From positions 3,476,501 through 3,540,500 of the forward strand of contig NZ_CP146606.1 of NCBI RefSeq assembly GCF_032842945.2: a stretch of 64,000 nt of DNA. The letters run 5' to 3'. The DNA comes from Roseovarius sp. W115 (lineage in GTDB: Bacteria; Pseudomonadota; Alphaproteobacteria; Rhodobacterales; Rhodobacteraceae). The notes beneath the pieces were generated by a model, which had not been told where the DNA came from, did no database searches, and was given only the letters and a program-made list of their open reading frames with translations. The translations under genes and the position numbers were made by a program. Below, piece by piece: positions 11,427 to 52,873 of this stretch. Every line of letters starts with the position of its first letter. Position 1 is the first letter of the stretch.

Positions 11427-12128
11427 ATGCTGACAAAGAAGCAGCTCGATTTGTTGGAGTTCATTCATAAACGGGTGCAGCGCGACGGTGTGCCGCCCAG
11501 TTTTGATGAGATGAAAGATGCGCTTGATCTACGGTCCAAATCCGGCATTCACCGATTGATCACCGCACTGGAAGAACGTGGATTTATCCGTCGTCTTGCC
11601 CATCGGGCACGGGCGCTTGAGATTGTCAAACTGCCCGACAATATGATCGGCGACAGCGCACCGGGCTTTACCCCGCGTGTGATCGAGGGCGACAAGCCCG
11701 ACACGCCGCAACCTGCCAATGCCCAACCGGTTGATGCCGCTCAGGTGATGGAGCTGCCACTGATGGGCCGAATTGCCGCCGGTGTGCCGATTGAGGCGAT
11801 TGCCCATGCGAGCCGCAATGTGGCCGTGCCCGGCGATATGATCAGCGGCCCGGGCGAGCATTACGCACTTGAAGTCAAGGGCGACTCGATGATCGATGCG
11901 GGCATTAATGACGGCGACGTGGTGATCATTCGCGAAACCAACTCGGCCGATAATGGCGACATCGTTGTGGCTCTGGTTGAGGATCAGGAAGCAACATTGA
12001 AAAAGTTCTACCGCCGAGGCAACGCCATCGCGCTCGAGGCCGCAAACCCGGCCTATGAAACGCGTGTTCTGCCCGATGACAAAGTCAAAGTTCAGGGCAA
12101 GCTGGTCGGGCTGATCCGAAGCTACTGA
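11427..12128 (+). CDS. lexA: SOS repressor LexA
   Basis: The 233-residue product has an N-terminal winged helix ([30 protein letters not shown]) and a C-terminal S24 self-cleaving domain. The cleavage bond is Ala118-Gly119 in [11 protein letters not shown], with nucleophile Ser154 in [10 protein letters not shown] and general base Lys192 in EATLKKFYR. It represses DNA-damage genes until RecA filaments trigger autocleavage. GGAGG lies 9 bases before the ATG, and an SOS box upstream indicates autoregulation. A linker of about 25 residues ([15 protein letters not shown]) is somewhat long. Its 3' end overlaps the convergent comEC by seven bases. Confidence 0.96.
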
Positions 12129-14208
12129 GCATGCCAGAGCCGTGTGCCGGTGACATCGCGCGCGGATATGGTTTTGATCCCATCTTTGGTTTTGTAGAGG
12201 GCAAGCGCACCGCTTGCCCTTAGCGTTTTGGGATGAATAACGCGGCACGGCAGGTTCAGGTCACGCGGCACAGCGGACAGGATCACCCAATCCTCTCGCG
12301 CACAGCTGTCAAAGCTTTCAGCGGCTTTTTTGCCCAGCAAATGAGTGATCTTCCATGCGCGGGTTGTGCTCTCTGACCAAAGCGCGTTTGCCGCGTCCTG
12401 AGAGCTTGGATTTCCATCGTTCTCAAGCCAGTTGAGCGCAACAAAGCCCGCACCGCGCGGTTTAGACAGCGCGCGACCCTGATCCGTCATAATGCCCACG
12501 AGCCCGCCGGTTTCCGCGATGAGCACATCCGGTCTGGGCGTTCCGGCCCATAGCGCAAAACCCAGGACAACAGGCACAACGCCCAATATCCGCAACCGCC
12601 CTTTCCACAAAAGCGCAAAGAGCGCGCCAAGCGCGATGAGCGGCAAAACCGCCTTACCCGGAGACGGCACCATCCCTCTTGCGCCTTCCCAGCCGGACGT
12701 TGTGTGCGCAACTCCGAGAATCCAATCCAGCGCGAGCCCCATGATGCTGAGTACCGGGCCTTCGAGGCCAAATGGCATCAACAGCCCGGCGAGTACCGCC
12801 ATTGGAATCACAATCACCCCCATGAGGGGCACTGAGAGAAGATTGGCAATTAGACCGTAATGCGCGATCTGGTTGAAATGCGCGGCTGCAATGGGCGCCG
12901 TGGCCAGCCCTGCAACAGCCGAGGAAATCACCACTGCCACCGCAGGGCGCAACCAGCGTGGGCCAAGAGAGATATCCCGGTCTCTCAAGCCATTGAACAC
13001 CGCAATCAGGGCTGCGGTTGCTGCAAAGGACAACTGAAACCCCGGCCCCAGCAAGGCCTCAGGGCGCAAGACCAGCACAATGATAGCCGCAACCGCCACC
13101 GAGCGCAGGCTCAACACACGCCTGTCCGCCAGCACCGCGATCAACATGACCGTGACCATCACAAAGGCCCGTTCGGTCGAGACGTTCCCCCCGAGAGTGC
13201 GAAGTATCCGGCGGCTGCAAAAAACGCGCCTATGGCCGCAAGTTTGCGTGTTGGCCAGCGGACATTCAGCGACGGTATCGCAGCAAGACCCAACCTCAGG
13301 GCGGCAAAAACAAACCCTGTGAGCAAGCCCATATGCAGCCCCGAGATGGCCAGAAGATGCGCCAGATTGGACACTCGCAAAGCGGTGAGCGTGTCCTGCC
13401 CCATGGCCGAGCGGTCCCCGGTCATGATGGCGGCGGCAAAGGCCCCGGCCTCGCCCTCCAGTTTGGATTGCACCCGCGCTGATAGGGCCATGCGCGTGCG
13501 GGTGATCCATTGCCCCTGCCCCGGCGGTCTCAGGCGCAGAACAGGTGTGCGGGTGTACCCCACGGCACCCAGTTGCTGAAACCAGGCGTGGCGTTGGAAG
13601 TCGAACCCGCCGGGCTCAACCGGGCCTCCGGGAGGGGACAGATGCGCTGTCAGGATCAGGGTCGTTCCAGGTGTCAGTGGCACAATCGGAGGATCCCCAT
13701 GCAACGCCACACGCACGCGCGCCGGTATCTCATCCATCGGAATGCCGGTCAGGACCACCTGGTCCAATGTCAGGCGCAAAGCATCCGAGGCCGAACGATC
13801 CAGCGCCACAAGTCGTCCCTGCACCGGGCCGTAATATCGCCAGCCAAGAACAGGCTCTGCCAGCAAATGCGCCCGCGCCCCGGCCAGGACCCCGCCAAGA
13901 GCCACAAGTGACAAAGCCCAGAGCGCCGGACGGACCTCAGGCGCCAGCCAGCGACTGGCGACAAGAGACACAGCCATTCCCAATCCCAGAACAGCGTAGT
14001 GCGTCGCCCCAGGTTCAAATTTCAGAAGAAAATATCCGCCGATTCCCATGGCCAAACAGACCGGCACCCAGCCGAACAGATACCCGCGCTGCGACAGCCA
14101 AACCAGTGTGATGGTCTGACACAGCCGAACCGCAAATGCGTGCGCATGGCTCAAGGCTTGTTTCCTGTGCAGCGGCTGGGTAGACAGACCACGCCGGTTT
14201 GCACGCAA
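12122..14208 (-). pseudogene. comEC: ComEC/Rec2 DNA uptake channel, interrupted by a one-base frameshift
   Basis: Two overlapping minus-strand frames together make one ComEC protein. The upstream part (from 14208) has the DUF4131 region and the ISGLHMGLLTGF start of the competence domain, and stops at 13159. The downstream part resumes with NVSTERAFVMVTVMLIAVL and carries the rest of the membrane domain and a reduced C-terminal domain to 12122. The switch falls at LSGG-NVSTERA, where a run of six C (plus strand 13187-13192) stands where seven would keep frame. Adding one base gives 695 residues, the normal length. ComEC moves single-stranded DNA through the inner membrane during transformation. 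I call it broken as written but suspect a base-calling error. Confidence 0.85.
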
Positions 14209-17024: not shown

Positions 17025-17390
17025 TCCTGTCGGGGCAGCCCAAAGTGTAATTTCAAGTTAAAAACCACCCTCACATGCGCTTGTGGGGGTGGTTTTGGTT
17101 TAATGACTGCAATACGGGACAATCTTGCCATTCGTTTCTTGCAGTTGAATGGCTGTTTTGTATGGTTCGCGACCGCAGCGAAAAGCATCAAGGGCGTAAA
17201 GTACAAATGTGCTGCAGGCGCGAAAATATAGGGTGGCGCTAGGAAAGCAGACATTCGAAACGCGGAAGCCGTCGTGGCTTGGTTGCGTCGACGAACACCA
17301 CATCTAGGTCAAAACCGGCCTCTCATTCACGCTTCAAGTCGCAAAATACACTGTCCAGGCTCAAAACTGGACAGAGACATGGAAACTGCC
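17025..17390. other. Intergenic region after gltA
   Basis: This 366-base gap between convergent genes holds the gltA terminator at 17061-17100. In the remaining 290 bases I see no supported gene, tRNA or strong hairpin. Confidence 0.5.
17061..17100 (+). terminator. Rho-independent terminator of gltA
   Basis: AAAACCACCC, TCACA, a short loop, TTGTG and GGGTGGTTTT form a 14-15 bp stem with one G-T wobble, followed by a T-rich tail (TTTTGGTTT). The A-rich 5' arm means it could also stop transcripts from the minus-strand aminotransferase operon. Confidence 0.9.
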
Positions 17391-18761
17391 TTACGACAAC
17401 ACCCTTTCAATTGCCTGTCTGGTTTTGCCCACGATTTCGTCAGCCTCTTTCTGGCTCAGGCAAAATGGCGGGGCAAAACCGATGATATCGCCTTGCGGCA
17501 TGGCGCGTGCGATGACACCGCTCTCTGCCATGGCGGCGGCCACCTGAGGGCCGATCTTTTCTGACGCATCAAAGAACACACGCCCTTCGCGCTCTCGCAC
17601 CAGTTCGACCGCGCAGAGCATACCTTCGCCGCGCACTTCGCCGACATGGGGATGATCCGCCAGGGAATCTGCCATTTGTGCGGTCAAATATTGCCCAACC
17701 GCACCGGCATTGGAGATCAGGTCAAGCGCATCAAGCAGTTTCAGATTGGCAACCCCGGCGGCGGCTCCAATGGGATGCGCGGAATAGGTCCATCCATGCC
17801 CAATCGGGCCGTTTTCATCCGTGCCCTGCTCCAGCACACGCCACATCCGGTCACTGACAATACTGCCTGACAGGGGCGCATAGGCGCTGGTCAGTCCTTT
17901 GGCGATGGTGATGAGGTCAGGTTTGATTCCGTAGTGGCCCGAACCGAACATGCTGCCCAACCGTCCAAAGCCTGTCACCACCTCATCCGCGATCAGTAGG
18001 ATATCATGCTTGTCGAGAACCGCCTGAATAGCGGGCCAATACCCTGCGGGCGGCGGGACGATCCCGCCTGTGCCCAGAACCGGTTCACCGATAAAGGCCG
18101 CGATGGTGTCCGCGCCCTCTTCCTCAATCAGAGCCTCCAGCGACGCGACGCAATGCTGCACAAACTCTGCTTCACTCTGGTTCAGGTCGGCGCGACGGAA
18201 GTAATACGGGGCTTCTGTGTGAACGACCTGGCCCAAAGGTAGATCAAATTTCTTGTGAAAGAGTTCCAACCCAGTCAGCGACCCCGTCATCAGACCCGAG
18301 CCATGGTATCCACGCCAGCGGCTAATGATTTTCTTCTTGTCAGGGCGTCCGAGAATATTGTTGTAATACCAGATCAGCTTGATGTTGGTTTCATTGGCGT
18401 CACTGCCTGACAGTCCGAAATAGACCTTGCTCATGTGGTCGGGCGCACGATCCAGGATCATTTTGGACAGGGTAATGCTGGCCTCGGTGCCATGCCCGAC
18501 ATAGGCGTGATAATAGGCCAGTTCCCTGGCTTGTTCGGCTATGGCTTCGGCAATTTCAGCACGACCATATCCGACATTCACGCAGTAGAGCCCGGCAAAG
18601 GCGTCCAGATGCCGGTTACCGTCGCGGTCCACGATATGGCAGCCTGATCCGCCAGTAATCACGCGTTGCGCCAGATTGCCCCGGGCAAATTCGGCCAGAT
18701 GGGTCGACGGATGAAAAAAGGTTTCGCGATCCCATTGTTCCAGCAGATCATTCTTAAGCAT
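17391..18761 (-). CDS. Class III PLP aminotransferase of the catabolic island
   Basis: The 456-residue product starts at the ATG at 18761 (GGAG 8 bases upstream). It is a fold-type I class III aminotransferase: [15 protein letters not shown] near residue 110, [26 protein letters not shown] with the PLP-binding Asp, and the Schiff-base Lys in [13 protein letters not shown]. Related enzymes act on omega-amino groups such as those of diaminobutyrate, beta-alanine or taurine, with pyruvate or 2-oxoglutarate as acceptor. As last gene of an operon with EutB, EutC and deacylase relatives, a role like DoeD (diaminobutyrate to aspartate semialdehyde) is plausible. The substrate cannot be read from sequence alone. 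Confidence 0.85.
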
Positions 18762-18845
18762 ATTTGACACTCCATTCGCGCTTATGCGCGGCTTTCGGGG
18801 ACGCATTCGAGGTTTGGCTCTTCGAGGCAATCTTGCGCATCTTTG

Positions 18846-19838
18846 TTAACTTGTGAACGACGTGCCTTTGCCCGCCGCTTCGGCGCGCTTACGGGCCAGT
18901 GTTGCAACAGCCGTATCCTGCACCCCGGTTCCGGTCAGATCACAGACTGTCAGGCTCGTCGCAGCATCGTATCCGGGCAATGCACCTATAACCACCTCGC
19001 CAAGCTCTGGGAATTGCGCGGTCTCTGACACAAGCCCAGCGGCCATGGCGGCGCGCAGCTCGCCCAGAACTCTGGTCTGGGACAAACGATCCGGTACATA
19101 GTGATCCGCCGCCGCGACAAGCGCTGGATCAATCTCGCATTTGCCGTCCTGATCAGACCCCATGGCGATCACAAGCTGCCCCGGTTTGACATGGCCCTTC
19201 TGAACAAGCGGAGTTTTTGCTGGTGTTGTCGTGACGATTATATCTGCCGTTTGGGTCGCTTCGCCAACCGTTTCAGAGGCAGACGCCTCAACGCTCAATG
19301 TGTTGGAGATACTTTCGGCAGCCTTTCGTGCCTTTGCGAGATCGCGCGCCCATACCGTGACATGTGTCAACGGACGAACAAGGTGAATGGCCTCAGCTTG
19401 CAGCTTTGCTTGCGCGCCTGCACCGATCACACACAGGCGAGAGGCCTCTGCGCGTGCCAGATGACGCGCGGCCACAGCACCCGCTGCCGCCGTGCGCGCT
19501 TCGGTCAAGTATCCGTTGTCCAGCAACACCGCCTCGACCTGTCCGGTTTTGGCCGAAAAGACCACCATGATGCCATTGGTCGTCGGCAAGCCCATGGCGG
19601 GATTGTCATAAAACCCCGGCGACATCTTGACTGTAAAACTCTCAGCCCCGCTGATATGGGCCGTCTTGATATCAATCTCACCGTTGTTTTCGTGAATGCC
19701 CATCGACACGATGGGCGGCATTTCCACACCGCCACCGGCCAGAGCGGCAAACCCCTGTTCGATGCTATCAACAAGCGACAGATCAAGCGGCACTAGTGCG
19801 CGCAATTCGGTTTCGGTCAAAATTTTGATATCAGGCAT
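18846..19838 (-). CDS. eutC: EutC-like protein, ornithine cyclodeaminase/mu-crystallin family
   Basis: The 330-residue product has the family Rossmann motif CVIGAGAQAKLQAEAI near residue 136, preceded by GYLTEARTAAAGAVAARHLA and followed by DIIVTTTPAKTPLV. The family includes ornithine cyclodeaminase, alanine dehydrogenase and iminosuccinate reductase (BhcD), all acting on imines/amino acids with NAD(P)H. Its gene start overlaps the eutB-like stop by eight bases. An EutB-EutC pair beside EutA and EutD relatives matches hydroxyectoine utilisation clusters. A BhcB/BhcD-type dehydratase-reductase pairing is the main alternative; the EutA and EutD neighbours favour the Eut assignment. Confidence 0.7.
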   Translation of the reverse strand: MPDIKILTETELRALVPLDLSLVDSIEQGFAALAGGGVEMPPIVSMGIHENNGEIDIKTAHISGAESFTVKMSPGFYDNPAMGLPTTNGIMVVFSAKTGQVEAVLLDNGYLTEARTAAAGAVAARHLARAEASRLCVIGAGAQAKLQAEAIHLVRPLTHVTVWARDLAKARKAAESISNTLSVEASASETVGEATQTADIIVTTTPAKTPLVQKGHVKPGQLVIAMGSDQDGKCEIDPALVAAADHYVPDRLSQTRVLGELRAAMAAGLVSETAQFPELGEVVIGALPGYDAATSLTVCDLTGTGVQDTAVATLARKRAEAAGKGTSFTS

Positions 19839-20822
19839 TTTTGTCCCCCGCCGTCACATCCACATCTTCGCCAGAAACAATTCGGTGGTGCAACGCCATG
19901 TCAATGTTACCACCGCTCAGGAGCAGCACGGTTTCGCCATTCGGTCTCACTTTGCCTGCGAGCAGGGCTGCAATCCCAACCGAACCTGACCCCTCGATGA
20001 TCTGGTGCTCTTGCCAATAGGCGTGCCGAATGGCAGCGGCAATCTCGGCCTCGCTGACCAGAACAATATCGTCCACCAGATCGCGGGTCATTTGAAACGT
20101 GTATGCGTTGTTTAACCCGATGCCTCCGCCCAGACTATCCGCCAACGTTGAAAGCTCGGGCACAGCGATTGGCTTACCCGCTTTCTGGCACGCATACATG
20201 GCTGCCCCGCGCTCCATCGACACACCGATGACGCGGATGTCGGGTTTGCGCGCCTTCAATGCGGCGGCCACACCGGAAATCAAACCACCGCCGGAAAGCT
20301 GCACCAGCACTGTGCTCAGGTCGGGCACATCTTCGATGAGTTCCAGGCCAAGCGTGCCCTGCCCTGCAATAATGTCGGGGTGATCAAAGGGGGGATCATC
20401 GTCATGCCCTCTTCCTCGACCAACCGATCCACTTCAACCTGAGCATCATCCTGGCTTTGACCGACAATGCGCACCTCTGCGCCTTGCGCGCGAATGCCGT
20501 CGATCTTGTTTTGCGGCACCAGTTTGGACATCGCCACGATGCATCGCACCCCATTTTGCCGCGCCGCATAAGCCAGCCCACGACCATGGTTGCCCGTGGA
20601 CACACCAACAACACCCTTTGCGCGCTGATCGTCTGTCAGGTTCAGAATGGCGTTTGTCGCACCACGGATTTTGAATGATCCCGTCCGCTGATGATGCTCC
20701 AGTTTCAGGTACACCGGAACGCCCGCCGCCGTGCTCAGCCTGTCTGAAAGCTCGGTCCTTGTGCGGTGGACTGTGCTGGCAATTCGGCCCCGCGCGGCCT
20801 CGATCTTGGCAATATCAATCAT
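19831..20822 (-). pseudogene. eutB: EutB-like threonine dehydratase-family enzyme, one-base frameshift
   Basis: Two frames join to give a fold-type II PLP enzyme. The first runs from ATG 20822 (ATGA overlap with the Rieske gene) with the PLP Lys in RTGSFKIRGATNAI near residue 50, through VGVSTGNHGRGLAYAA. The second carries VLVQLSGGGLISGVAAAL and ends IIEGSGSVGIAALL. The break is at GMTMIPP-FDHPDIIAGQGT, where six G (plus strand 20389-20394) stand instead of seven. Adding one base gives 330 residues, the normal length for EutB and threo-hydroxyaspartate dehydratases. It should remove water or ammonia from a beta-hydroxy amino acid. The gene is probably intact in the organism. Confidence 0.75.
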
Positions 20823-21994
20823 TCCGCCGCCTTTGGCTTGGACACTTTTGGCCCGGTCAGCATCCGTGCCAGGTAGCGCTGAAATTCCCAAATGGTCTGC
20901 TCCTTTGGAGAGAGGCGCCCCGGCTGCGCCGACAGGGCCGCGGCATTACGTGCGATGGCCGACGTGATGGGCTTGTCCTCATCGTTGATCGCATGAAAAC
21001 TGGCTTTCAGCTCTTCCACACGCGCGTCAAATTCCTCCCCTACGGGCATGGCGTCAGGATGGACATCAACACCCCAGAACACACGCACCTTGTCCGTTTC
21101 AACCGGCATTAGAGACATCCAGAAGGTCCGCTCTGCCGACACAGACGCCATCTGAGCCGGGAACGCACCAAAGAGCGGCACGCTGTTCACCTCATCCTCG
21201 GACAGCTTCGGGTTCGGGTTTGCCATGGCTTCGCTATATTCAAACGCGACACCGGGATTGCGCCCTTGCGTGTAAAGGCAGTAGCCCGGACCGCCGGTCA
21301 CGACATGCGCATGTTGTGTGGGCAGAACCGGCTCTACGGTTTTGCTGTGCACGGCAAACAGATGGTAAGGCTCCATGAAATTCTGGAAGAGGATTTTCCA
21401 GTTGGTGTCCCAGATCTCATCCACCCGAAACAGAGTGCGGTAGCTGGCGACATCATAGTTGGCCAAAAGCTCTGACAGGGGCGCCAGTCGCGGCGCCAAA
21501 GGCTTGGCCGACGGATCGAGATTGACGTACACCCAGCCCAGCCATTCTTCGACGGCGAATTGCGGCAGGCGACAATTTCGTTTGTCAAAATTTTCCCGCA
21601 TATGGGCCGCCCCGATCAACTGCCCATCCAATGTGTAGGTCCAGGCGTGATAGGGGCAGGTGATTTTGCCACCGATGCTGCCCTCGCCCTCCAGCAGGCT
21701 CATCATCCGGTGGCGGCAAATATTGGACATCGCGCGCAACACACCGTCATGGTCGCGCAGGATGAAGACCTCGTCGCGGCTGATGGTCATGACGCGGTAG
21801 TCGCCAGGCTTTTCAAACTCATCCGAACGGCCCACGCAAATCCATTCGCAATTGAAAATCACATCCCGTTCCAATTCGAGAAATGCCTGAGATGTATAAA
21901 CCTGAGGCGGCGTGGCCTCGGACTGATCTTCGGGCAAAGCGGCATTCGCGGATACCGCGTCAAGCAATTCGGAAAGTGGCATATTGGGCTGCAT
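20819..21994 (-). CDS. Rieske non-heme iron oxygenase, alpha subunit
   Basis: The 391-residue product has an N-terminal Rieske domain with the [2Fe-2S] ligands in NICRHRMM and CPYHAWTY (about residues 90-115), and a C-terminal catalytic domain with NWKILFQNFMEPYHLFAVH, which holds the bridging acidic residue and the two iron-binding His. Enzymes of this type hydroxylate aromatics or oxidise and demethylate quaternary amines; the single-subunit form and small-molecule context fit the amine-oxidising group. No ferredoxin reductase partner lies in the window. GAGG is 8 bases before the ATG. It sits inside the Eut-like operon, which is unusual for ectoine clusters. Confidence 0.85.
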   Translation of the reverse strand: MQPNMPLSELLDAVSANAALPEDQSEATPPQVYTSQAFLELERDVIFNCEWICVGRSDEFEKPGDYRVMTISRDEVFILRDHDGVLRAMSNICRHRMMSLLEGEGSIGGKITCPYHAWTYTLDGQLIGAAHMRENFDKRNCRLPQFAVEEWLGWVYVNLDPSAKPLAPRLAPLSELLANYDVASYRTLFRVDEIWDTNWKILFQNFMEPYHLFAVHSKTVEPVLPTQHAHVVTGGPGYCLYTQGRNPGVAFEYSEAMANPNPKLSEDEVNSVPLFGAFPAQMASVSAERTFWMSLMPVETDKVRVFWGVDVHPDAMPVGEEFDARVEELKASFHAINDEDKPITSAIARNAAALSAQPGRLSPKEQTIWEFQRYLARMLTGPKVSKPKAAE

Positions 21995-22022
21995 GACAGG
22001 ACCTCAATCGCTGGGTTTGGCG

Positions 22023-23210
22023 TTAACTCGATAATCGCGTGGTGAGTTTATGCAGGAAATCCAACCCCTGCGTCAGCTCTTCGAGTTCAATATATTCATC
22101 GGCCTTATGAGCGCGGCTGATATCGCCTGGGCCAAAGACCACGGTAGAATAGTCAGCGTCGCTAAAATAGCCCGCGTCAGTTCCGAAAGAGACCACGCCG
22201 GTGTCGTTCAGCCCCGTGATCATGCTTACAAATTCCGCCGCCTTCGCGGCATTGCGGTCATCCAGCGGCGGCACGGCAATTTCTGTTATAATCCGGATCT
22301 CGGCACCGTCGCAGACGGCCCGCATAGCAGGTAGGATGTCCTGCTCGGCAAAGGCTTGGATTTCAGCGATGGCCACTGATCCGTCCTCGCCCGGCATCGG
22401 GCGGTATTCCCAATCGAAGTTGCACCACCCAGCAGTTGCGTTTCGCGCCGCGCCGCCCTCTACCGTGCCGACGTTAAAGGTAGGATACGGCGGGCTGAAG
22501 GGCGAGCCTTCCAAGGGGTTTGCCGCGCGCTGCGCATTCATCTCTTCAATCTTCGAGATCAGCTTCATCGCAGCGGTGATTGCGTTGACACCCTGCCTTG
22601 GGTCACAGGAATGCGCCTCTTGGCCCTTGATTTCAGTGCGCATCTCATAGCCGCCCTTGTGGCCGGTCACGATCTTCATCTGCGTCGGCTCTCCGACGAT
22701 GACGATCTCTGGGCGATAGGCAAACCCCGACAAGCTTTCGAGCAGGACGGGCATCCCAAGCCCGCCCGTTTCCTCGTCAAATGTAAACGCGATATGAATA
22801 GGCTTGGTCAGGGGTGCGGCTTTGAACACAGGCACCGACGCCAGAACACAGGCCAGAAACCCCTTCATATCAACCGATCCACGCCCATAAAGCCTGTTGC
22901 CTTTGCGGGTCAGCGTGAACGGGTCGCTCGACCAGTCCTGACCCTCCACCGGGACAACATCGGTGTGCCCGTTCAACACTACACCGCCGTCGATCTCTGG
23001 CCCGATTGTCGCAAAGATGTTGGCACGTTCTTTGGCCTCGTCGAAGCTGAGGGTCGAGGAAATGTCGTGATGTGCCAGAAAGTCTTGAATGTAACCAATG
23101 ATCCCATGGGTTGGACGTCCGGATACAGTTTCAAAACCGACCAGAGCGTCAAGGATATCTAAGGCCGCATCCAGTGTTTGGGGCATGGCTTTATCCTCGG
23201 ACGGCGTCAT
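22023..23210 (-). CDS. M20 family amidohydrolase/deacetylase (ArgE-like)
   Basis: The 395-residue product shows the M20 metal ligands in order: His in LNGHTDVVPV, bridging Asp in GRGSVDMKGFLA, the catalytic and metal Glu pair in TFDEETGGLG, GEPTQMKIV and a C-terminal His in GDISRAHKADEY. It resembles acetylornithine deacetylase, a zinc enzyme that removes an acyl group from an amino acid. In this operon it could replace the EutE/DoeB enzyme that deacetylates N-acetyl-diaminobutyrate. Its start overlaps the gntR stop (ATGA), so the two are coupled. Confidence 0.85.
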   Translation of the reverse strand: MTPSEDKAMPQTLDAALDILDALVGFETVSGRPTHGIIGYIQDFLAHHDISSTLSFDEAKERANIFATIGPEIDGGVVLNGHTDVVPVEGQDWSSDPFTLTRKGNRLYGRGSVDMKGFLACVLASVPVFKAAPLTKPIHIAFTFDEETGGLGMPVLLESLSGFAYRPEIVIVGEPTQMKIVTGHKGGYEMRTEIKGQEAHSCDPRQGVNAITAAMKLISKIEEMNAQRAANPLEGSPFSPPYPTFNVGTVEGGAARNATAGWCNFDWEYRPMPGEDGSVAIAEIQAFAEQDILPAMRAVCDGAEIRIITEIAVPPLDDRNAAKAAEFVSMITGLNDTGVVSFGTDAGYFSDADYSTVVFGPGDISRAHKADEYIELEELTQGLDFLHKLTTRLSS

Positions 23211-23904
23211 GGTTCTGCCAGCAATCGACCAAGAAGGGTCAACATCCGTTGAAGGTCGATGCTGCGGTAGTGCCCAACACTGCGAATGTCATTGTCCAAC
23301 ATGGCCGCGCGAATTTCTTCTAACTCGTTGAGCTGCCCCGCATGCGCCTTGTCCCAACCAAACTGAGGAAGAAACGTGTACCAAATGCGCGCCACCCGGT
23401 AATACATCAATTCAGTGATCTCACAGAGCGGCGCATTACCCGTCAGATCAGACAGTAACTGTTGCAGGTCATTGGCAATGAGCGCCAGCTCATCAAATGC
23501 CCCTGTCTTGTCCGCCAAGTCGCGGGTGCGTTTCACCAGATCATCGATCGTCTTGATATGATCCGGTGTGATCTCAATCGGCGACAGCTCTCCCATCATT
23601 TCAGCCAGACGTTTGCGCAGGTCATAAATCTGTTTGAAGGTCTTCAGATCAATGTCGGTCACTATCGTACCAACGCCGTTCTTGATCGCCACCAACCCCA
23701 TGAATTCAAGCCGGTGAAAAACCCGGCGGATCGGGGTGCGGCTGATGCCGAACTCTTTGGCCAGTGCCACCTCGCTCAACACGGTCCCGGGGGATAAGTC
23801 AAAAGGCAAATCCGATCCCGCAATTCGCAATAGATCCGGTCAAACCGTTCAGCGCCGGTTTCGTCCTCGGACACGGCGATAGCTGTCTCAGCTAACTTAA
23901 CCAT
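23207..23904 (-). pseudogene. GntR-family (FCD type) regulator, one-base frameshift
   Basis: The reading starts at the ATG at 23904 (GGAGG 6-7 bases upstream) with MVKLAETAIAVSEDE, then a GntR winged helix: FDRIYCELRDRICLLTYPPG, TVLSEVALAKEFGISRTPIRRVFHRLE. An FCD-like all-helical ligand domain follows. The frame breaks at YPPG-TVLSEV, where five G (plus strand 23789-23793) precede CCC; one added G or C restores 232 residues, the usual length. FCD regulators sense carboxylates and usually repress a neighbouring catabolic operon. It lies at the head of the minus-strand operon and is divergent from eutA, with a palindrome between them. It is probably intact in the cell. Confidence 0.8.
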
Positions 23905-24010
23905 CGGCTTCCTCCGGTGAAGTTTCTGCGTTTCACGCGATTTCCATACGCGCCGCGTCCTCTCCCATTGACACGACTCAGCTTTAGGGGTGAGCATAGC
24001 TAAAATCAAG

Positions 24011-24020
24011 CTGTATACAG
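24011..24020. promoter_or_regulatory. Perfect palindrome CTGTATACAG, likely GntR operator
   Basis: The 10-base palindrome lies in the divergent region between gntR (start 23904) and eutA (start 24029). TGTATACA cores are typical of operators for FCD-type GntR regulators. It is only 8 bases before the eutA start, so binding would also cover the ribosome-binding region in DNA and block elongation or a nearby promoter. Confidence 0.6.
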
Positions 24021-24028
24021 GTTACGCC

Positions 24029-24820
24029 ATGACAGAGGTCGTCCAAACAGCCGACATAACAAGGTTTCAAAGCACTTCGGTCTGCGATGACATTGCGCTC
24101 GATGAGGGCCCTGGAAAATATCGGATCGGGCTCATTGTGCTCAGCAATGACTACACGGTCGAACGTGACTTCATGAATATGCGGCCCAACGATGATGTCG
24201 CGATTTTCACCACACGGATTGCCAACACACCTGACTGCAACGTGAACACCTTGCGGAAAATGGCGTCCAGAATTGCAGATGCGGCCGAGCTTTTGGTGCC
24301 TGAGGGGCGGCTGGATACGGTCGCTTATGCCTGCACATCAGGCTCGGTGGTGATCGGCTATGAGGCCATTTCCGATCACATCAAGGCCGTTCGCCCCGAG
24401 GCAGCCTGCATCACGCCGATCACTGCATCTCTGGCTGCGCTCGACACCTTTGGCGCGCAAAAGTTGGCGGTTCTGACGCCCTATGTGGATGAGGTCAACG
24501 CGGTCATCGCCGACTATCTGCAAACGGCTGGCAAGCAGATCTGCGCCTTCTCGTCGTTTCGGATCGAAGACAACGAAGAAATGGCCGCCCTGACCGGTGA
24601 GGCGATTTTCAAGGCTGCGGTGAAATCCGACAGGCCAGAGACAGACGCCCTGTTCATTTCCTGCACTGCAATCCGTGCAGTCGAGGTTGTGGACCGCATA
24701 GAACAGGCCTTGGGCAAACCGGTTGTCACCGCCAATCAGGCCATGTTCTGGCAGGCCCTTCGGGCAGCGGGCTGTGAGGACAAAGTCGAAGGCTATGGCA
24801 CTTTGCTACGGCAGTTTTAG
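24029..24820 (+). CDS. eutA: EutA-like protein (Asp/Glu racemase/maleate isomerase superfamily)
   Basis: The 263-residue product shows the two-domain Asp/Glu racemase superfamily pattern with two catalytic-type cysteines, ACTSGSVVIG near residue 103 and FISCTAIRAVEVV near residue 213. IGLIVLSNDYTVERDF near the N-terminus and VVTANQAMFWQALR near the C-terminus match the EutA proteins of hydroxyectoine utilisation clusters. EutA is thought to work with EutB and EutC in converting hydroxyectoine-derived intermediates, but its reaction is not firmly established. It is the first gene of the plus-strand operon. I prefer ATG 24029 to an upstream in-frame start at 23990, because the latter would include the operator. 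Confidence 0.75.
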   Translation: MTEVVQTADITRFQSTSVCDDIALDEGPGKYRIGLIVLSNDYTVERDFMNMRPNDDVAIFTTRIANTPDCNVNTLRKMASRIADAAELLVPEGRLDTVAYACTSGSVVIGYEAISDHIKAVRPEAACITPITASLAALDTFGAQKLAVLTPYVDEVNAVIADYLQTAGKQICAFSSFRIEDNEEMAALTGEAIFKAAVKSDRPETDALFISCTAIRAVEVVDRIEQALGKPVVTANQAMFWQALRAAGCEDKVEGYGTLLRQF

Positions 24821-24842
24821 TCTGCATGTCGGGAGGTATGCG

Positions 24843-25723
24843 ATGAACCACGAACAAATTTTGTCCAATCCCCCACGGGTTCTCAGTCAGGAAGAGCGGT
24901 CCTTTTATTTCGAACAAGGGTATGTCGTTAAAGAACGCGCCATCGGTCAAAACTGGCTCGACCGGCTCAACACCGCCATGGCCACACTGGTTGAGACGAC
25001 GCGCAGCATGACATGCTCTACCCAGACATATGATCTGGACGCGGGCCACACAGCCGAAAACCCACGGCTGCGCCGCATTGCCTATCTTGATGACCTCGAT
25101 CCTGTGTTCTGGGATTTCTGCAGAGACTCCCCCTCACCGATCTGGCCGCTGATCTGCTTGGCCCGAATGTTCGGTTTCGCGAGTGCATGATCAACTTCAA
25201 ATGGGCTGGAGGCGGTCAGGAGGTGAAGTGGCATCAGGATTTTCCCTTCTACCCGCTGACCAACACCAACGTGGCGCAGTTTCTGGTGTGCCTGAACGAC
25301 ATTGGTCCCGATCAAGGCCCTTTGCAGGTTGTCCCCAAAAGCCACGAAGGCCCATTCTACAGCCACTATGACGACGACGACAATTGGCTTGGTTACATCC
25401 CGGATGAAAGATTGGCGGAGGCCGGACTGGACACGGCGGTAGATTTGACCGGCCCGGCTGGCACCGTCACGGTCCACCATTGTGCGGCACTGCACGCCTC
25501 ACGCGCCAACCTCAGTAAGCTGGGGCGGCCGGTGGTGATTGTCACCTACTGCGCCTGCGATGCCATCGGCTACACCGCTGTGACGTATCCCACGTCAAAT
25601 TGCCTGAAGGTCGTGCGCGGTGAAGAGGCAAAGTACGCGCGCCTTGAGCCTATGGAAATGCGCATGCCGCCGGACTGGTCCGATGGCTACACCTCCATCT
25701 TTGAGCATCAGGAAAAGGCCTAG
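24843..25723 (+). pseudogene. Phytanoyl-CoA dioxygenase (PhyH) family enzyme 1, one-base frameshift
   Basis: The reading begins at ATG 24843 (GGAGG 6 bases upstream) with MNHEQILSNPPRVLSQEE and continues to FWDFCRDSP. It then shifts frame to ADLLGPNVRFRECMINFKWAGGG. The iron-binding His-x-Asp is in VKWHQDFPFYP and the distal His in HHCAALHASRANLS. The break is at a run of five C (25129-25133) where six restore the frame and give 293 residues. PhyH enzymes are Fe(II)/2-oxoglutarate dioxygenases that hydroxylate small molecules, including ectoine (EctD), but this one lacks the EctD signature around the iron site. It lies between eutA and the eutD-like gene, with 3 bases to the latter. Confidence 0.8.
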
Positions 25724-25726
25724 ACT

Positions 25727-26902
25727 ATGGCACCACCGTTTTCCCGCGAAGAATATGCGGACCGTCTGACCCGCGTCAGAAACGCCATGCAGTCCAAGGA
25801 ACTGGACGCTCTGGTGATTGGCGATCCGGCCAATATCAACTGGTTGACCGGCTATGATGCCTGGTCGTTCTACACCCCGCAGATCATGGTGGTTGGCCTG
25901 GAGCTAGAACCAACTTGGATGGGCAGGGAAATGGATGCAGGCGCTGCCGCGTTCACAACCTATTTGCCACCAGAACAGTTGGTCCCCTTTCCCGAAACGC
26001 ATGTGCAGCAGACGACGTTCCACGCGGCGCAGTACATGGGCGACTGGATGAAATCGAAGGGGTTGAACGGTAAACGGATCGGTTATGAGAGTGACGTCTA
26101 CTTTTTGACACCCGCCGCGGTGGGTCATTTAATGGAGCGCACACCCGACAGCGACTGGAGCGATTGCGGCTTGCTGGTAAACTGGCAGCGCTTGACCAAA
26201 AGCCCCGCTGAGATCGCAATGCTGCAACAGGCCGCAATCATTGCAGGCAAGGCCATGCAAACGGCCTATGACGGCGTGCGACCGGGGGTACGGCAATGCG
26301 ATCTGATGGCCGATGTCGTCGCCGCTCAAATCCGTGGCACGCCAGACTTCGGCGGAGATCAGACCGCATTGCACCCGCTGGTTCTGGCAGGCGAGGCCGC
26401 TTCGACTGCCCATCCCATGTGGACCGACGCGCCATTTGAGAAGGACCAGACCATCGCATTCGAGCTGGGCGGATGCCGCAAACGCTATAACGCGGGCCTT
26501 GCGCGCACCGTGCATCTGGGTGAGCCGCCAAAGATATTGATGGACACCGCCAAAGCCGTGGGCGAAGGCATGGACGAAGTTCTGTCCGCCATGAAGGCCG
26601 GGGCGCTGTGCTGCGATGTGCATGCCGCCTGGCAGGCGGTTCTGGATCAGTACGGGCTCGAAAAGAAAAGCCGTATCGGCTATTCGATCGGGCTTGGTTA
26701 TTCTCCCGACTGGGGGGAACACACGATCAGTTTCCGCCCTGATGACAGCACTGTTCTGCCAGAAAACGCCGTCGTACATATCATCCTGGGGATGTGGATG
26801 GACGGCTGGGGCATGGAGTTGAGCGAAACAATCCATGTACGTGCCAACGATGCTTCATGTCTCACGCAATTCCCGCGCGATGTTCACGTGATCGACGTGT
26901 GA
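25727..26902 (+). CDS. eutD: EutD/DoeA-like M24 family hydrolase
   Basis: The 391-residue product has a pita-bread M24 fold preceded by a creatinase-type N-terminal domain (NINWLTGYDAWSFYTPQ). Where metallo-peptidases have two Asp ligands, this protein has FELGGCRKRYNAGLART, the E-x-x-GC-x-KRY pattern of ectoine hydrolases, which are reported to work without a metal through a covalent Glu intermediate. Other family stretches are YSIGLGYSPDWGEH and MELSETIHV. By analogy it would open the pyrimidine ring of ectoine or a relative. The call rests on motif similarity remembered from the family; substrate is inferred. Confidence 0.75.
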   Translation: MAPPFSREEYADRLTRVRNAMQSKELDALVIGDPANINWLTGYDAWSFYTPQIMVVGLELEPTWMGREMDAGAAAFTTYLPPEQLVPFPETHVQQTTFHAAQYMGDWMKSKGLNGKRIGYESDVYFLTPAAVGHLMERTPDSDWSDCGLLVNWQRLTKSPAEIAMLQQAAIIAGKAMQTAYDGVRPGVRQCDLMADVVAAQIRGTPDFGGDQTALHPLVLAGEAASTAHPMWTDAPFEKDQTIAFELGGCRKRYNAGLARTVHLGEPPKILMDTAKAVGEGMDEVLSAMKAGALCCDVHAAWQAVLDQYGLEKKSRIGYSIGLGYSPDWGEHTISFRPDDSTVLPENAVVHIILGMWMDGWGMELSETIHVRANDASCLTQFPRDVHVIDV

Positions 26903-26915
26903 AAGGACAGTAGAC

Positions 26916-27743
26916 ATGGGGAAAAAACTCACCCAGGCCCAGATCGACGCCTTCCACCGGGATGGGTTCGTCTCGCCCATAGATGTGTTTTCCGAAGCAG
27001 AGGCCCTGCGCCTGCGCAAGGAACTTGAAGCCGCCGAAGAAAAATGGCCCGAAGCCTTTCAGGGGGCTGCGCGCAACAATGCTCATCTGAACCTGATGTG
27101 TCTTGATGAGATCGTGCACAACCCGATCCTTGTGGATGCGATTGAGGATCTGATCGGCCCTGACATCCTCAATTATGGAACGGTTCTTTTCATCAAAGAG
27201 CCCAAGGACCCCGGTTTTGTCAGCTGGCATCAGGACGCTCGTTACATGGGGCTGGAACCTCATGTCGGCATCACCGCCTGGGTGGCCTTGACAGAGGCCA
27301 ATGACGAAAACGGGTGCATGCAGATGATCCCTGGCAGCCATGGCGAGATCAAAGATCACACCGACACATTCGGTGAAGAAAACATTCTGACCCGCGGGCA
27401 GGAAGTGGAAGATGTGGATGCCAGCAAGGCGGTGTCCACGCCCCTGCGCCCCGGCCAAATGTCAATCCACAGCGCCCGGGTGATCCACAGCTCGCAACCA
27501 AACCGCAGCAATGACCGGCGCATCGGGTTTGTCATTCAACCCTATATGCCGCCACATGTGCAGCAGATGATCACGCCAACCGGTGCACAAATGGTGAGAG
27601 GCCGTGATCCTTTTGGGAATTTTGAACACTTGCCTCGTCCTTCATCCGATATGGATCCCGGTGACATAGAGAAACGAGATTGGGTGAATGAAACATGGGC
27701 AGACATTCTCTATCATGGCGCCAAGATGCGGCGAGACTATTAG
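26916..27743 (+). CDS. Phytanoyl-CoA dioxygenase (PhyH) family enzyme 2
   Basis: The 275-residue intact product has the Fe(II)-binding His-x-Asp in SWHQDARYMGLEP, distal His in MSIHSARVIHSSQPN and the 2-oxoglutarate-binding Arg nearby (SNDRRIGFVIQPY). NGCMQMIPGSHGEIKDH is a further family feature. It is a cytoplasmic Fe(II)/2-oxoglutarate dioxygenase of unknown substrate and differs clearly from the first PhyH gene, so the two are not a recent duplication. It ends the plus-strand operon, 13 bases after the eutD-like gene. Confidence 0.85.
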   Translation: MGKKLTQAQIDAFHRDGFVSPIDVFSEAEALRLRKELEAAEEKWPEAFQGAARNNAHLNLMCLDEIVHNPILVDAIEDLIGPDILNYGTVLFIKEPKDPGFVSWHQDARYMGLEPHVGITAWVALTEANDENGCMQMIPGSHGEIKDHTDTFGEENILTRGQEVEDVDASKAVSTPLRPGQMSIHSARVIHSSQPNRSNDRRIGFVIQPYMPPHVQQMITPTGAQMVRGRDPFGNFEHLPRPSSDMDPGDIEKRDWVNETWADILYHGAKMRRDY

Positions 27744-28008
27744 CAAGGTCAATGAAACGCCTGGCTTGGCACCGCAAAAGGTAACAGTGTCCACAAAGCC
27801 CCAGTTCAGTCACGCCTCAACTTCGCGAATGCCGCGAACGTCCAGTATGCGGGTGCGATTGCAGCATCAAGGTGATGTTGCCAAAGACGGCTTAGGGCCA
27901 TCCAGACATGTGCCAATGTCAGCGAACCGCACTTCGCAGCCATCCTTGCAAGGCGTAACACCTGGAACTTTGGGCTCAAAGCCGACTTTACATAACTCGC
28001 GGAAGCAC
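27744..28008. other. Convergent intergenic region
   Basis: The 265 bases between the second phyH gene and the enoyl-CoA hydratase gene contain no supported gene. I see no clear terminator hairpin with a T-run. Confidence 0.4.
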
Positions 28009-40669: not shown

Positions 40670-41125
40670 ATGACCATCACGCTTAGAAAGCCGTCTTTGG
40701 ATGAATTGCCCGCCCTTTCGCTACTCTGCCAGCGGTCAAAGGCGCATTGGGGGTATGACGCTGCCTTCATGAAGGCCTGCGAAGCAGAACTGACATTGAG
40801 TGACGACGCACTCGACCAACCAATCATGCTGGCAGAAACAGGTGATGAAATTGCGGGCGTGGCGCAGCTTGACTGGGAAGGGTCGGATATGGATCTCGAC
40901 CGGCTCTATATTGACCCGCCCTTTATCGGCCAAGGTGTTGGACGTGTCTTGTTTGACTGGTGCGTAACCACGGCCAAAAGCATGGACGCCGCGCGGCTTT
41001 TGATCGATGCGGAACCAAGTGCCGTTAAGTTCTATGAGAAAATGGGCGCCGTTCAGATTGGGATGCGCCCGTCCGGCTCCATCCCAGGTCGGTTTCTGCC
41101 ACAGCTGGAGTTTGTGCTTAGATAA
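40670..41125 (+). CDS. GNAT family acetyltransferase
   Basis: The 151-residue product follows the GNAT pattern, with MLAETGDEIAGVAQLDW leading to LDRLYIDPPFIGQGVGRVLFDW, the acetyl-CoA-binding Q-x-x-G-x-G/A loop. The acceptor is unknown. GGAGG is directly before the ATG at 40670 with only one base between, too close for normal use, so translation may be leaderless or weak. Its end overlaps the convergent M24 gene by eight bases. Confidence 0.8.
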   Translation: MTITLRKPSLDELPALSLLCQRSKAHWGYDAAFMKACEAELTLSDDALDQPIMLAETGDEIAGVAQLDWEGSDMDLDRLYIDPPFIGQGVGRVLFDWCVTTAKSMDAARLLIDAEPSAVKFYEKMGAVQIGMRPSGSIPGRFLPQLEFVLR

Positions 41126-42245
41126 CGGTCAACTCGCTGCCCGCCAAAGGTGACAACAGCCGGGGGGCACCGGTTGTTATGACGATGTTTTCTTCATGCA
41201 CCATCATACGCCCCTCCACCGTTTCAATCCCCGGCTCTAATGTAATCACCATTCCTGGCTTGAGCTCGGTTTCATCGGCCTGAATGAGCGAAAGCCCTTC
41301 GGTCAGTTGCAGGCCCAAAGCATGTCCCAGCCGTCCGGTAGTCTCCCCTCCGCCCACAATATCGGCCATCACGCGCCACAGATCACAGGCACAGGCACCG
41401 GGACGTGCGGTCTCCAACCCAGCGGCCACGGCCTCCATCAGACGGCTATGCGCATTTGCGGCTTCTTGTGAGGGCTGGCCCACGGAAAAGTTTCGGTCAT
41501 AGTCGCAGAAGTACCCGTCCTTCATCGCCCCAGTGTCTAGCATGAGCACATCCCCTGCCTTCAGGGGCGTGTCACTGGCCGGTGAGATCACATCGTCATA
41601 TCCGTCTGGCCCGGCGCCACCCGAAAGATACGGCACCCAGTCCGCGCCTTCTTCGAGCAAAAGACGTTGGAAGTTACGAAATACCGTTGAGAGAGGAACG
41701 CCTTCGCCTGCGATCTCACCCATACGTGCAAAGGCACGACCCGCCACCGAACAAATGGTTTCGATCTTGGCAATCTCGGCCTCGGATTTCACCGCACGTG
41801 CGTTTGCGAGTATGCCGTGGTCTGGGCCGAACGACATCTGCGTCTGTGCTTTCAGCGCCTCAAAATCTGCCAAGGGCATACGCAGATGCGTTTCCAAATG
41901 CGACGGAATGCCAACCGGCCCACCAACCTCTTTCAGCGTCTGCGCCAATAAGCCCACCCCATCATCCCCTGGCACAGGCGCAGGCCAGGTGCGAATATCC
42001 TCGATCCACCCCCGCCCCATAAGCGCCGCCCCGATGGATGGGATGACGGCAATGGGTTTGCCACTGGCCGGGACCAACAGATACCAGGGCCGCGTCGGGC
42101 TTTGCCAAAACCGGGTCAAAAAGCCGGTGAGGTACAGGATGTCATGTTCTGTCGTCAAAAGTAGCGCGCCAAGCTCATGTTGCGCCATGCCCGCCTGGAT
42201 AACTTTGAGCCGCGCGGCGTATTCGGCGTCAGGAAACAGGCTCAC
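41118..42245 (-). CDS. M24 family metallopeptidase (Xaa-Pro aminopeptidase-like)
   Basis: The 375-residue product has a creatinase-type N-terminal domain (HDILYLTGFLTRFWQSP) and a pita-bread catalytic domain with all five metal ligands: two Asp in MLDTGAMKDGYFCDYDRN, His in LGHALGLQL, Glu in ITLEPGIETV and Glu in MVHEENIVI. Unlike the eutD-like protein it is therefore a metallo-enzyme. I propose the GTG at 42245, which overlaps the upstream stop codon as GTGA; an ATG at 42269 would overlap further. It is paired with a PLP lyase gene, so the two may break down one substrate. Confidence 0.8.
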   Translation of the reverse strand: MSLFPDAEYAARLKVIQAGMAQHELGALLLTTEHDILYLTGFLTRFWQSPTRPWYLLVPASGKPIAVIPSIGAALMGRGWIEDIRTWPAPVPGDDGVGLLAQTLKEVGGPVGIPSHLETHLRMPLADFEALKAQTQMSFGPDHGILANARAVKSEAEIAKIETICSVAGRAFARMGEIAGEGVPLSTVFRNFQRLLLEEGADWVPYLSGGAGPDGYDDVISPASDTPLKAGDVLMLDTGAMKDGYFCDYDRNFSVGQPSQEAANAHSRLMEAVAAGLETARPGACACDLWRVMADIVGGGETTGRLGHALGLQLTEGLSLIQADETELKPGMVITLEPGIETVEGRMMVHEENIVITTGAPRLLSPLAGSELTVI

Positions 42246-43270
42246 TGCGCCATCTCGCTGAGAATACACAGGCTAACGGCGTCCTCAGGCAGGTCCATCA
42301 AACGCAAAGCGGCAACGCCTGCACCGCCGGATTCTGTTGTCGCCAGACTTTGGCTTGCCAGTTCAGATAAAACTTCCTCAGCTTCAGCTTCTGTGACTGT
42401 GACAAACGCATCGGCATCGCGTGACAGACCTTTCAGTGCGATCAAAGATGCTTCCTTGCAGTCCAGCCGCCCCATGGCCGACACGCCACCCTCAGCCGTG
42501 ACGAATTGCCCGGCCTCGATCGCGGCCTGAAGTGCGGGGGCCTCTGATGGCTCCACCACTAGTATCTGAGGTGCATCGCCCCAAGCCTTGCGGAAGTAAG
42601 CCGCACAGGCCCCAGCCAAGCCACCGACGCCGGCTTGCAAAAAGATATGGGTGGGCACCACTGGCATCTGGCGCGTGGCCTCGGCGGCCATGGCCAAGTA
42701 ACCTTCCATTAACCTGTGCGGGCGCATCACATAGCCGGGCCATGACGTATCAGACAAAAGCACCCAGTTGTTTTCTACCGCTGCCTTCATAGCGGCCTCG
42801 ACGCTAGCCTCATATTCGGCCCCTTCCCGCACCACACGCGCACCTTTGTCACGCAGACGATTCGCAAAGCTTTCTGGCACCGTATCGGCAAGATAGATCA
42901 CCGCATCCGCCCCAAAGATGTGCGCGCCCGCGGCGACCGACATGCCGTGATTGCCCGCGCTTGCCGTCACATAAGTGCGCCCGGTCAAAGAGGTGCTGAG
43001 ATCCTCGGTCTCTGCTTCCACAGCTTCACATGCGATCACGTAGGCCGCGCCAAGCGCCTTGAAGCTGCCAAGGCCCATACGCTCACGCTCATCCTTGATC
43101 CAGACGGACCCCGGCAATCCGCTGGCCTTGACCAACGGCGTTTCACTTGCCGAGGGGCATTGCTTCAACAATGCCTCAACAGCGTCGCCATCCGTACTGG
43201 GCATCGGAATTTCGTTCAGGATGTCATCTGGCAAGGCTTTACCCCGCCACGGGTTCTGGATGATCTTCAT
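42242..43270 (-). CDS. PLP-dependent diaminopropionate ammonia-lyase-like enzyme
   Basis: The 342-residue product is a fold-type II PLP enzyme with the Schiff-base Lys in GLGSFKALGAAY near residue 70, VTASAGNHGMSVAAGA, and the phosphate loop QAGVGGLAGACAAY. It resembles diaminopropionate ammonia-lyases (DTSWPGYVMRPHRLMEGY is characteristic) but is shorter than the about 400-residue E. coli enzyme. It would eliminate ammonia from diaminopropionate or a related amino acid. It is translationally coupled to the M24 gene by GTGA. Confidence 0.75.
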   Translation of the reverse strand: MKIIQNPWRGKALPDDILNEIPMPSTDGDAVEALLKQCPSASETPLVKASGLPGSVWIKDERERMGLGSFKALGAAYVIACEAVEAETEDLSTSLTGRTYVTASAGNHGMSVAAGAHIFGADAVIYLADTVPESFANRLRDKGARVVREGAEYEASVEAAMKAAVENNWVLLSDTSWPGYVMRPHRLMEGYLAMAAEATRQMPVVPTHIFLQAGVGGLAGACAAYFRKAWGDAPQILVVEPSEAPALQAAIEAGQFVTAEGGVSAMGRLDCKEASLIALKGLSRDADAFVTVTEAEAEEVLSELASQSLATTESGGAGVAALRLMDLPEDAVSLCILSEMAQ

Positions 43271-51202: not shown

Positions 51203-51214
51203 GATCGCCCTCTC

Positions 51215-51892: not shown

Positions 51893-51893
51893 A

Positions 51894-52787: not shown

Positions 52788-52873
52788 GGCAGCCTCCAAA
52801 ACCCGTCTGAACAAAGGCTAGTGCGGACGGCACAAGGTTTCAATAAGAGAATTTAATATTCTTACCAGGAAAA

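Follow-up and report, generated by a model that had tools for sequence, protein, structure and literature searches.

The cassette and its insertion site

The subject of this analysis is a ten-gene cassette in Roseovarius sp. W115, examined within a 64,000-nucleotide stretch of contig NZ_CP146606.1 (positions 3,476,501 to 3,540,500), hereafter the window. Coordinates are positions in this 64-kb window, and L and G numbers are labels of comparison loci and genomes. The cassette combines homologues of the ectoine and hydroxyectoine proteins EutA, EutB, EutC, EutD and Atf with an M20 deacylase and three oxygenases. It is a genuine mobile form of ectoine-type catabolism, and the partnership of EutD with M20 is the firmest new point. 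The ten genes form two divergent operons, gntR-M20-Rieske-eutB-eutC-aminotransferase on the minus strand and eutA-phyH1-eutD2-phyH2 on the plus strand. The minus-strand genes are tightly packed in an operon-like manner, several with small overlaps. The features are as follows.

17118..27971, strand not applicable: entire cassette or island (about 10.85 kb), flanked by gltA and echA
17391..18770, minus: class III aminotransferase, Atf/DoeD type (NF005684, 827 bits, cut-off 687); likely start codon at 18761
18846..19838, minus: EutC-like imine reductase/cyclodeaminase (TIGR02992, 460.6, cut-off 471.65; NF006141, 465.7, cut-off 408)
19831..20822, minus: eutB dehydratase, frameshifted into two open reading frames (ORFs) (TIGR02991, 222 and 253 bits)
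20819..21994, minus: Rieske non-haem iron oxygenase, oxygenase component (PF00355 and PF00848)
22023..23210, minus: M20 deacylase, ArgE type, proposed EutE substitute (TIGR01892, 363, cut-off 297.7)
23207..23830, minus: GntR/FCD regulator, N-terminus lost by a frameshift at about 23.8 kb (PF00392 and PF07729)
23966..23980, plus: promoter-like conserved stretch CATTGACACGACTCA, from an alignment, position counted by hand
24011..24020, plus: palindrome CTGTATACAG, candidate GntR operator directly before eutA, from its conservation in the alignment
24029..24820, plus: EutA-like racemase/isomerase (TIGR02990, 243.1, cut-off 318; PF17645)
24843..25723, plus: PhyH1, Fe(II)/2-oxoglutarate oxygenase, frameshifted at about 25.1 kb (PF05721 on the C-terminal piece)
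25727..26902, plus: EutD2, M24-family hydrolase related to DoeA (TIGR02993, 394.4, cut-off 613)
26916..27743, plus: PhyH2, second Fe(II)/2-oxoglutarate oxygenase (PF05721, 106.3 bits; TIGR01762, 88.8, cut-off 226.3)

The starts of eutB, eutA and phyH1 were placed by hand, guided by relatives. Genes at the Roseovarius loci were called by a codon model, as longest-ORF calling gave doubtful ORFs in GC-rich relatives. All ten genes described in the first-pass annotation were present where it had placed them, and its remark that EutE, an aldehyde dehydrogenase and a transporter are missing from view was borne out by the ORFs and family scans within 17118-27971. It overlooked the frameshifts in eutB, in the N-terminal part of gntR and in phyH1.

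L046, L047 and L130 carry all ten genes in identical order, with eutB and M20 split in the last. Because this order repeats, the arrangement is not due to chance. The sole DNA match between the window and L046 covers 17117-27982 at 96.9% identity. In the genome that carries L046 (G205), gltA and echA are neighbours at locus L195, where one flank matches as far as 27971 and the other from 17118 onwards; 435 bp lie between them that are absent from the window, and the cassette copy of G205 sits on another contig than gltA-echA. Among 54 congeners with a match, 19 other loci were fetched, and in 13 of these gltA and echA were at most about 1.5 kb apart. The cassette is inserted precisely between gltA and echA and is a discrete mobile unit. 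The full set was seen in four Roseovarius genomes only, the window strain included. Conservation as a unit, which the first-pass annotation had advised testing, was seen in close relatives; the wider core is EutD2 with M20.

EutD2 and its deacylase partner

EutD2 scores below the cut-offs of both ectoine hydrolase models (TIGR02993 as listed; NF038259, 181.9 against 575). Its nearest solved structure is DoeA of Halomonas elongata (6twk, 305 bits; also 6twj and 6yo9), with creatinase at 34.5 bits, and it is 40-42% identical to the EutE-linked EutD proteins of L178 and L179. It shares the M24 family and catalytic core residues with DoeA. A midpoint-rooted tree built from 100 EutD sequences puts it in a clade of its own, apart from DoeA and also from EutE-linked EutD. 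Both clades conserve DoeA residues H238, E255, Y263, R269, H361 and E377 and the DWGE stretch; H238, E255, E377 and DWGE are presumably catalytic, as judged from roles known in the M24 family. Forty positions are fixed differently between EutE-linked EutD (n = 10) and the crown of EutD2 (n = 53). Those beside conserved motifs include V53T, H54P, L239P, F253A, H264N and P266G, and other switches, G251T and L311W, enlarge the residue. The changes to smaller residues would be compatible with a bulkier substrate.

We scanned the named genomes for EutD2 and obtained 64 loci at 46-98% identity, some on short contigs, from Roseovarius, SAR116/Puniceispirillum, other alphaproteobacteria, Granulosicoccaceae, other gammaproteobacterial metagenome-assembled genomes (MAGs) and one Acidimicrobiales MAG. 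Partners were counted at 35% identity or more and within 11 kb. M20 was found at 38 loci and EutE at 6, never both (P = 0.003; all co-occurrence P values here are hypergeometric and, the loci and genomes being related, serve as guides only). The M20 gene lay within 3.5 kb at 36 of the 38. When the count was confined to the 39 loci flanked by 3.5 kb or more of sequence on each side, M20 lay within 3.5 kb in 26 and EutE in 3, and the EutE of L105 stood 4.3 kb off. In a midpoint-rooted tree, the M20 proteins from EutD2 loci fall into one clade (support 1.0) that has two branches. Wherever a partner was seen in the EutD2 crown, it was M20. Among the basal members, EutE adjoins EutD2 in L096, L103, L104 and L106 and lies 4-5.4 kb off in L100 and L105. 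Three of these basal EutE proteins were scanned with TIGR02994 (cut-off 402.7) and scored 442, 393 and 355 bits, the first at L096, which combines phyH1, EutD2 and EutE.

We extended the survey of EutD to 198 genomes of the family, one per genus by tally. A match to the window EutD protein was present in 130 (137 matches). EutE above the cut-off was present in 26, and 21 more had a relative below the cut-off at an E value of 1e-40 or better. In 84 genomes there was an M20 with 50% or more identity to the one that neighbours EutD in L032; all 84 have EutD (P = 1.5e-22) and only 2 have EutE (P = 1.8e-11). Sixty-three of the 137 EutD matches adjoin an L032-type M20 (within 500 bp), 25 adjoin an EutE above the cut-off and none adjoin both; in 43 EutD genomes neither is adjacent. 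A EutD homologue taken alone as the mark of ectoine use may thus misread many genomes.

The M20 protein passes the ArgE model, and its genomic partner argues for a substrate that would be an acyl-diamino acid other than acetylornithine. DoeB is a member of the aspartoacylase/M14 group (PMC3187862), so M20 comes from a different family than EutE. Since EutE was exchanged for M20 with EutD2 kept, we propose that M20 performs the deacylation of EutE.

A second, classical eut/doe cluster, which the first-pass annotation had advised looking for, was not found in the window genome by searches for EutE, EutB and EutD. The best EutE score was 62.9 bits, outside the cassette and under the TIGR02994 cut-off, and the only EutB above 201 bits was the window copy. 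The notion of a distinct pathway had been staked against a classical cluster in this genome together with no conservation of the gene set elsewhere; because no classical cluster was found, that combination does not occur. A second EutD lies at 1.62 Mb with no EutE beside it. It groups with the EutD proteins of L032 and L026 (support 1.0), both of which adjoin M20; the L032-type M20 of the window genome (67% identical to that of L032) is at 2.78 Mb, unlinked to this EutD. Around the second EutD (L028:5311-15431) lie genes for a class III aminotransferase, an amine-oxidase-like protein, a GntR protein and polyamine-type ABC proteins, without EutE, and this EutD lineage is common in Roseovarius. 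In a survey of 60 Roseovarius genomes, some EutD was present in 58 and EutE above the cut-off in 2, with five others at 206-251 bits. Those two, the sources of L048 (R. albus) and L049, carry eutABCDE in classical order plus EutD2.

Oxygenases, Eut homologues and regulation

The Rieske gene was found in 6 of the 64 EutD2 loci, phyH1 in 13, phyH2 in 12 and EutA in 8. EutA occurred with phyH1 in 7 of its 8 loci (P = 2e-5) and the Rieske gene with phyH2 in 6 of 6 (P = 1.2e-5). The recurrence of the oxygenases with EutD2, together with the separate EutD2 clade, is in keeping with the candidate undescribed pathway of the first-pass annotation.

The best solved relative of the Rieske protein is carnitine monooxygenase. 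The cassette protein belongs to the same oxygenase family as CntA (132 bits) and GbcA, yet failed the GbcA model NF058607 (131.2 against 670). Of the 60 Roseovarius genomes, 5 have copies at 79% identity or more, and each of these 5 is one of the 7 that have EutD2 at 80% or more. Three genomes without EutD2 at that level hold relatives at 62-65% near M24 and EutA-like genes. The relative in L176 (62%) is near soxB, soxA and an M24 gene, with a short EutA-like ORF that has no NCBIfam match; this sox neighbourhood hints at N-demethylation. At L177:11161-16459, M24, PLP lyase-type, M20 and EutA-like genes adjoin the Rieske neighbourhood, yet another mix of the same kinds of protein.

In PhyH1 the residues H131, D133, H212, H217 and R228 are invariant in 12 of 12 aligned relatives. 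PhyH1 shares the PhyH superfamily with the ectoine hydroxylase EctD, its best solved match by single sequence (51 bits). The EctD signature comprises 17 residues, F-x-W-H-S-D-F-E-T-W-H-x-E-D-G-M/L-P (PMC5924519). We rejected PhyH1 as an ectoine hydroxylase, as this signature is absent from the alignment and the family score is 50.5 against a cut-off of 336.5. PhyH2 has 6zyk as its best solved relative (125 bits) and is not specific to the cluster: a 71% identical paralogue lies among ribosomal protein genes, identified by eye, elsewhere in the window genome. The locus of this paralogue, L193:3312-16489, also holds a gene for ectoine synthase (175 bits, cut-off 128) and a Rieske gene; no other ect genes were recognised nearby.

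The first-pass annotation had called the proteins EutA-, EutB-, EutC- and EutD-like and had named a class III aminotransferase. Family membership holds for EutB, whose intact L046 orthologue reaches 519.9 bits with TIGR02991 (cut-off 413.35), and for the aminotransferase. EutC falls narrowly short of TIGR02992 but passes NF006141, and EutA and EutD are clearly below their cut-offs. The window aminotransferase is 73-81% identical to aminotransferases that adjoin EutD. One of these, the L185 protein (839 bits with NF005684), is 80% identical to it and lies in the order eutB-eutC-eutD-AsnC/Lrp type-succinate-semialdehyde-dehydrogenase type-aminotransferase. The order asnC-ssd-atf is a published one (PMC13188858). 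With its relatives in this eutD-asnC-ssd-atf setting, the last step of the cassette likely acts on a diaminobutyrate-type product. At L052, where no eutB was detected, a PLP aldolase-like gene (64.6 bits, family cut-off 230) lies between M20 and gntR. This aldolase-like protein and EutB would both use a beta-hydroxy amino acid, such as a PhyH1-type hydroxylase would supply.

EutABC were proposed to convert hydroxyectoine to ectoine (PMC5924519) and, later, to act on hydroxy-ADABA and hydroxy-DABA (PMC13188858); the steps have been termed uncertain (PMC8739950), and deletion of eutB and eutC in H. elongata left growth on ectoine unimpaired (PMC3187862). A natural gene set that joins EutABC to hydroxylases would help to settle their functions.

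The cluster regulator is a GntR protein with an FCD domain, as the first-pass annotation had it, and not the MocR-type EnuR, for which the rest of the genome was not searched. FCD regulators bind sites of the CTGTATACAG kind. Six of the 7 aligned clusters hold a perfect copy of this palindrome, and L052 has it with one mismatch. CATTGACACGACTCA is identical in 5 of 7, with one mismatch in L048 and more in L052. CTGTATACAG occurs once in the window, with 0.31 occurrences expected at up to one mismatch and at least one in 29 of 100 shuffles; the weight therefore lies on its conservation alone. No ueh/ehu transporter ORF lies inside 17118-27971, and the rest of the genome was not searched for one. 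TAXI/TRAP-type genes (L064) and amino-acid ABC genes (L105) were considered as the transporter and set aside, since they are near EutD2 but do not recur across the set.

Substrate and alternative readings

Compared with the classical eut cluster, the cassette shares homologues of EutA, EutB, EutC, EutD and Atf, a pair of ring hydrolase and deacylase, and a regulator of the GntR superfamily. It differs in having M20 for EutE, an FCD-type GntR for the MocR-type EnuR, a divergent gene order and three added oxygenases, and in lacking AsnC, Ssd and a transporter. In Bacillota, the abgB gene of eut clusters is one that we take to be of the M20 type. These clusters, described in a 2026 survey, have pucR-eutBCD-atf with abgB-thrA-adh and a second eutD, without eutE (PMC13188858). 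They thus share with the cassette the missing eutE, the abgB/M20 gene, EutB, EutC, EutD and Atf, and differ in their regulator and phylum and in having no Rieske protein or dioxygenase, neither word being used in the survey. A SAR116 study mentions predicted ectoine transport in one subclade, and its main text contains neither EutD nor DoeA as a word (PMC12262181). No description of the gene set of the cassette was found in the open-licence literature searched.

We propose, at about even odds, that the cassette encodes a divergent ectoine-type pathway for a cyclic amidine in which M20 replaces EutE and the oxygenases prepare a substituted substrate. The substrate would most likely be a cyclic amidine (tetrahydropyrimidine-like) carboxylate, not plain ectoine, and bear an additional group, for example N-methyl. 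Removal of the N-alkyl group would fall to the Rieske oxygenase, which would draw on a reductase encoded elsewhere. PhyH1 and PhyH2 would hydroxylate the ring or the beta-carbon, and EutA may invert that centre. EutD2 is predicted to hydrolyse the amidine to an N-acyl diamino acid, from which M20, in place of EutE, would remove the acyl group. EutB would then dehydrate a beta-hydroxy amino acid, EutC would reduce the imine formed, and Atf would transaminate a diaminobutyrate-type product towards central metabolism; the identities of Atf and EutB point to such diaminobutyrate-type intermediates. Both operons would be controlled by the GntR/FCD protein through the intervening palindrome. Each reaction, the sequence of steps, the regulation and the substrate are inferred. 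The first-pass suggestion of a substrate that must first be hydroxylated or dealkylated, for instance an ectoine derivative, is in line with this proposal.

Several observations weigh against this proposal. Nine of the 39 well-flanked loci had no M20 within 3.5 kb and no EutE, with M20 further off in L052 and L078. The basal EutD2 members are mixed: two of the three scanned EutE proteins are under the cut-off, L092 has M20 beside its other EutD, and neither M20 nor EutE was found at L093, L094, L097, L098 and L101, some of which are on short contigs. EutB, EutC and Atf occur in 3, 2 and 4 of the 64 loci, so other loci may finish the route in another way. N-demethylation depends on one scanned sox neighbourhood (L176), with the sox-sized ORFs of L177 known by size only and none in L175. 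PhyH1 lacks the EctD signature and, by profile, is no closer to EctD (77.0 bits) than to phytanoyl-CoA dioxygenase (82.4). Finally, three genes are frameshifted in the window sequence.

It is possible, though unlikely, that the substrate is plain ectoine or 5-hydroxyectoine, with EutE displaced by M20 and the oxygenases being auxiliary or making hydroxyectoine ahead of EutABC. Atf and EutB do belong to hydroxyectoine-type families, the catalytic residues of EutD are conserved, some basal EutD2 proteins sit with EutE, and the window genome has no other EutE above the cut-off or strong EutB. However, the two Roseovarius genomes with eutABCDE carry EutD2 besides; EutD2 and EutA are well under the ectoine cut-offs, with several of the 40 switched positions beside conserved motifs; and a Rieske protein appears to have no part in the published scheme (PMC13188858 does not contain the word and, judged by the search results, neither does PMC5924519; dioxygenase is likewise missing from the former). 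Because R. albus keeps a classical cluster beside EutD2, the EutA and EutD scores are low and oxygenases are present, a substrate other than plain ectoine is favored.

M24 enzymes include creatinase, and a guanidino or creatine-type substrate whose C-N bond is cut by EutD2 would account for the agmatinase-like gene, of one cluster, that occurs in 13 of the 64 loci, several from SAR116, and stands directly before EutD2-M20 where inspected. The one such gene scanned passes TIGR01230 (208 bits against 174), and the Rieske relative of L176 lies with M24 and sarcosine oxidase genes. We consider this substrate improbable, since EutD2 is far closer to DoeA than to creatinase, and diaminobutyrate chemistry is indicated both by the basal members linked to EutE and by Atf.

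The locus L079:6904-12375 has formaldehyde-oxidation genes along with the agmatinase-like gene directly before EutD2-M20. Formaldehyde-oxidation neighbours in SAR116 were discarded as a clue to the substrate, on the presumption that they reflect the general synteny of that clade. An enlarged island at L078:2-21013 (AG-343-N19) has three M24/EutD genes, two EutA-like genes, PhyH1, PhyH2, M20, a DUF1989 gene and an amidase gene.

Against L046, the window shows three frame-breaking one-base shortenings, each within a homopolymer: one in eutB, one close to the gntR start and one in phyH1. All three genes are intact in L046 and L047, where the gntR orthologues are longer, and phyH1 is intact in L048 as well. 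The eutB break, near 20.4 kb, is found at the same place in L130 (genome G229), whose M20 is split. The window genome and G229 are both in two contigs, so error at homopolymers in long reads is the simplest reading, and the breaks in eutB, gntR and phyH1 are probably sequencing errors; the shared eutB break may be real. A comEC-like gene at 12122-14208 of the window, identified by eye, is likewise in two overlapping ORFs, as homopolymer errors would give. That the cassette is decaying and non-functional in the window genome, as the three frameshifts and the broken eutB and M20 of G229 might suggest, is very doubtful, given single-base homopolymer shortenings against a 97% identical relative in a two-contig genome with the comEC-like gene split too, intact copies in L046 and L047, and proteins 95-99% identical to those of L046 apart from the frameshifted part of EutB.

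Returning to the proposed amidine pathway, we suggest, with less confidence than the proposal itself, a broader picture: EutD-M20 could be a widespread, unrecognised alternative to EutD-EutE, with the EutD2 branch serving substituted, probably N-methylated and hydroxylated, ectoine-like solutes, perhaps from marine algae or plankton, and with Roseovarius, SAR116 and gammaproteobacteria sharing the core and adding oxygenases according to the substitution. If EutD-M20 does act on ectoine, roseobacters and SAR116 would have a hidden common route for it; if it acts on something else, a perhaps sizeable unknown marine solute would be involved.

Two other gene groups of the window may be mentioned. 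At 41118-43270, about 13 kb from the cassette, an M24 PepQ-like gene overlaps a diaminopropionate-ammonia-lyase-like gene (244 bits, cut-off 276), which makes a further pairing of M24 with a PLP lyase. At 48274-52814, about 20 kb from the candidate demethylase, a type III glutamine-synthetase-like gene (653.7, cut-off 469.6) lies with glutamate-synthase-like and amidotransferase-like genes, in what we take to be an N-methylglutamate (methylamine) gene set.

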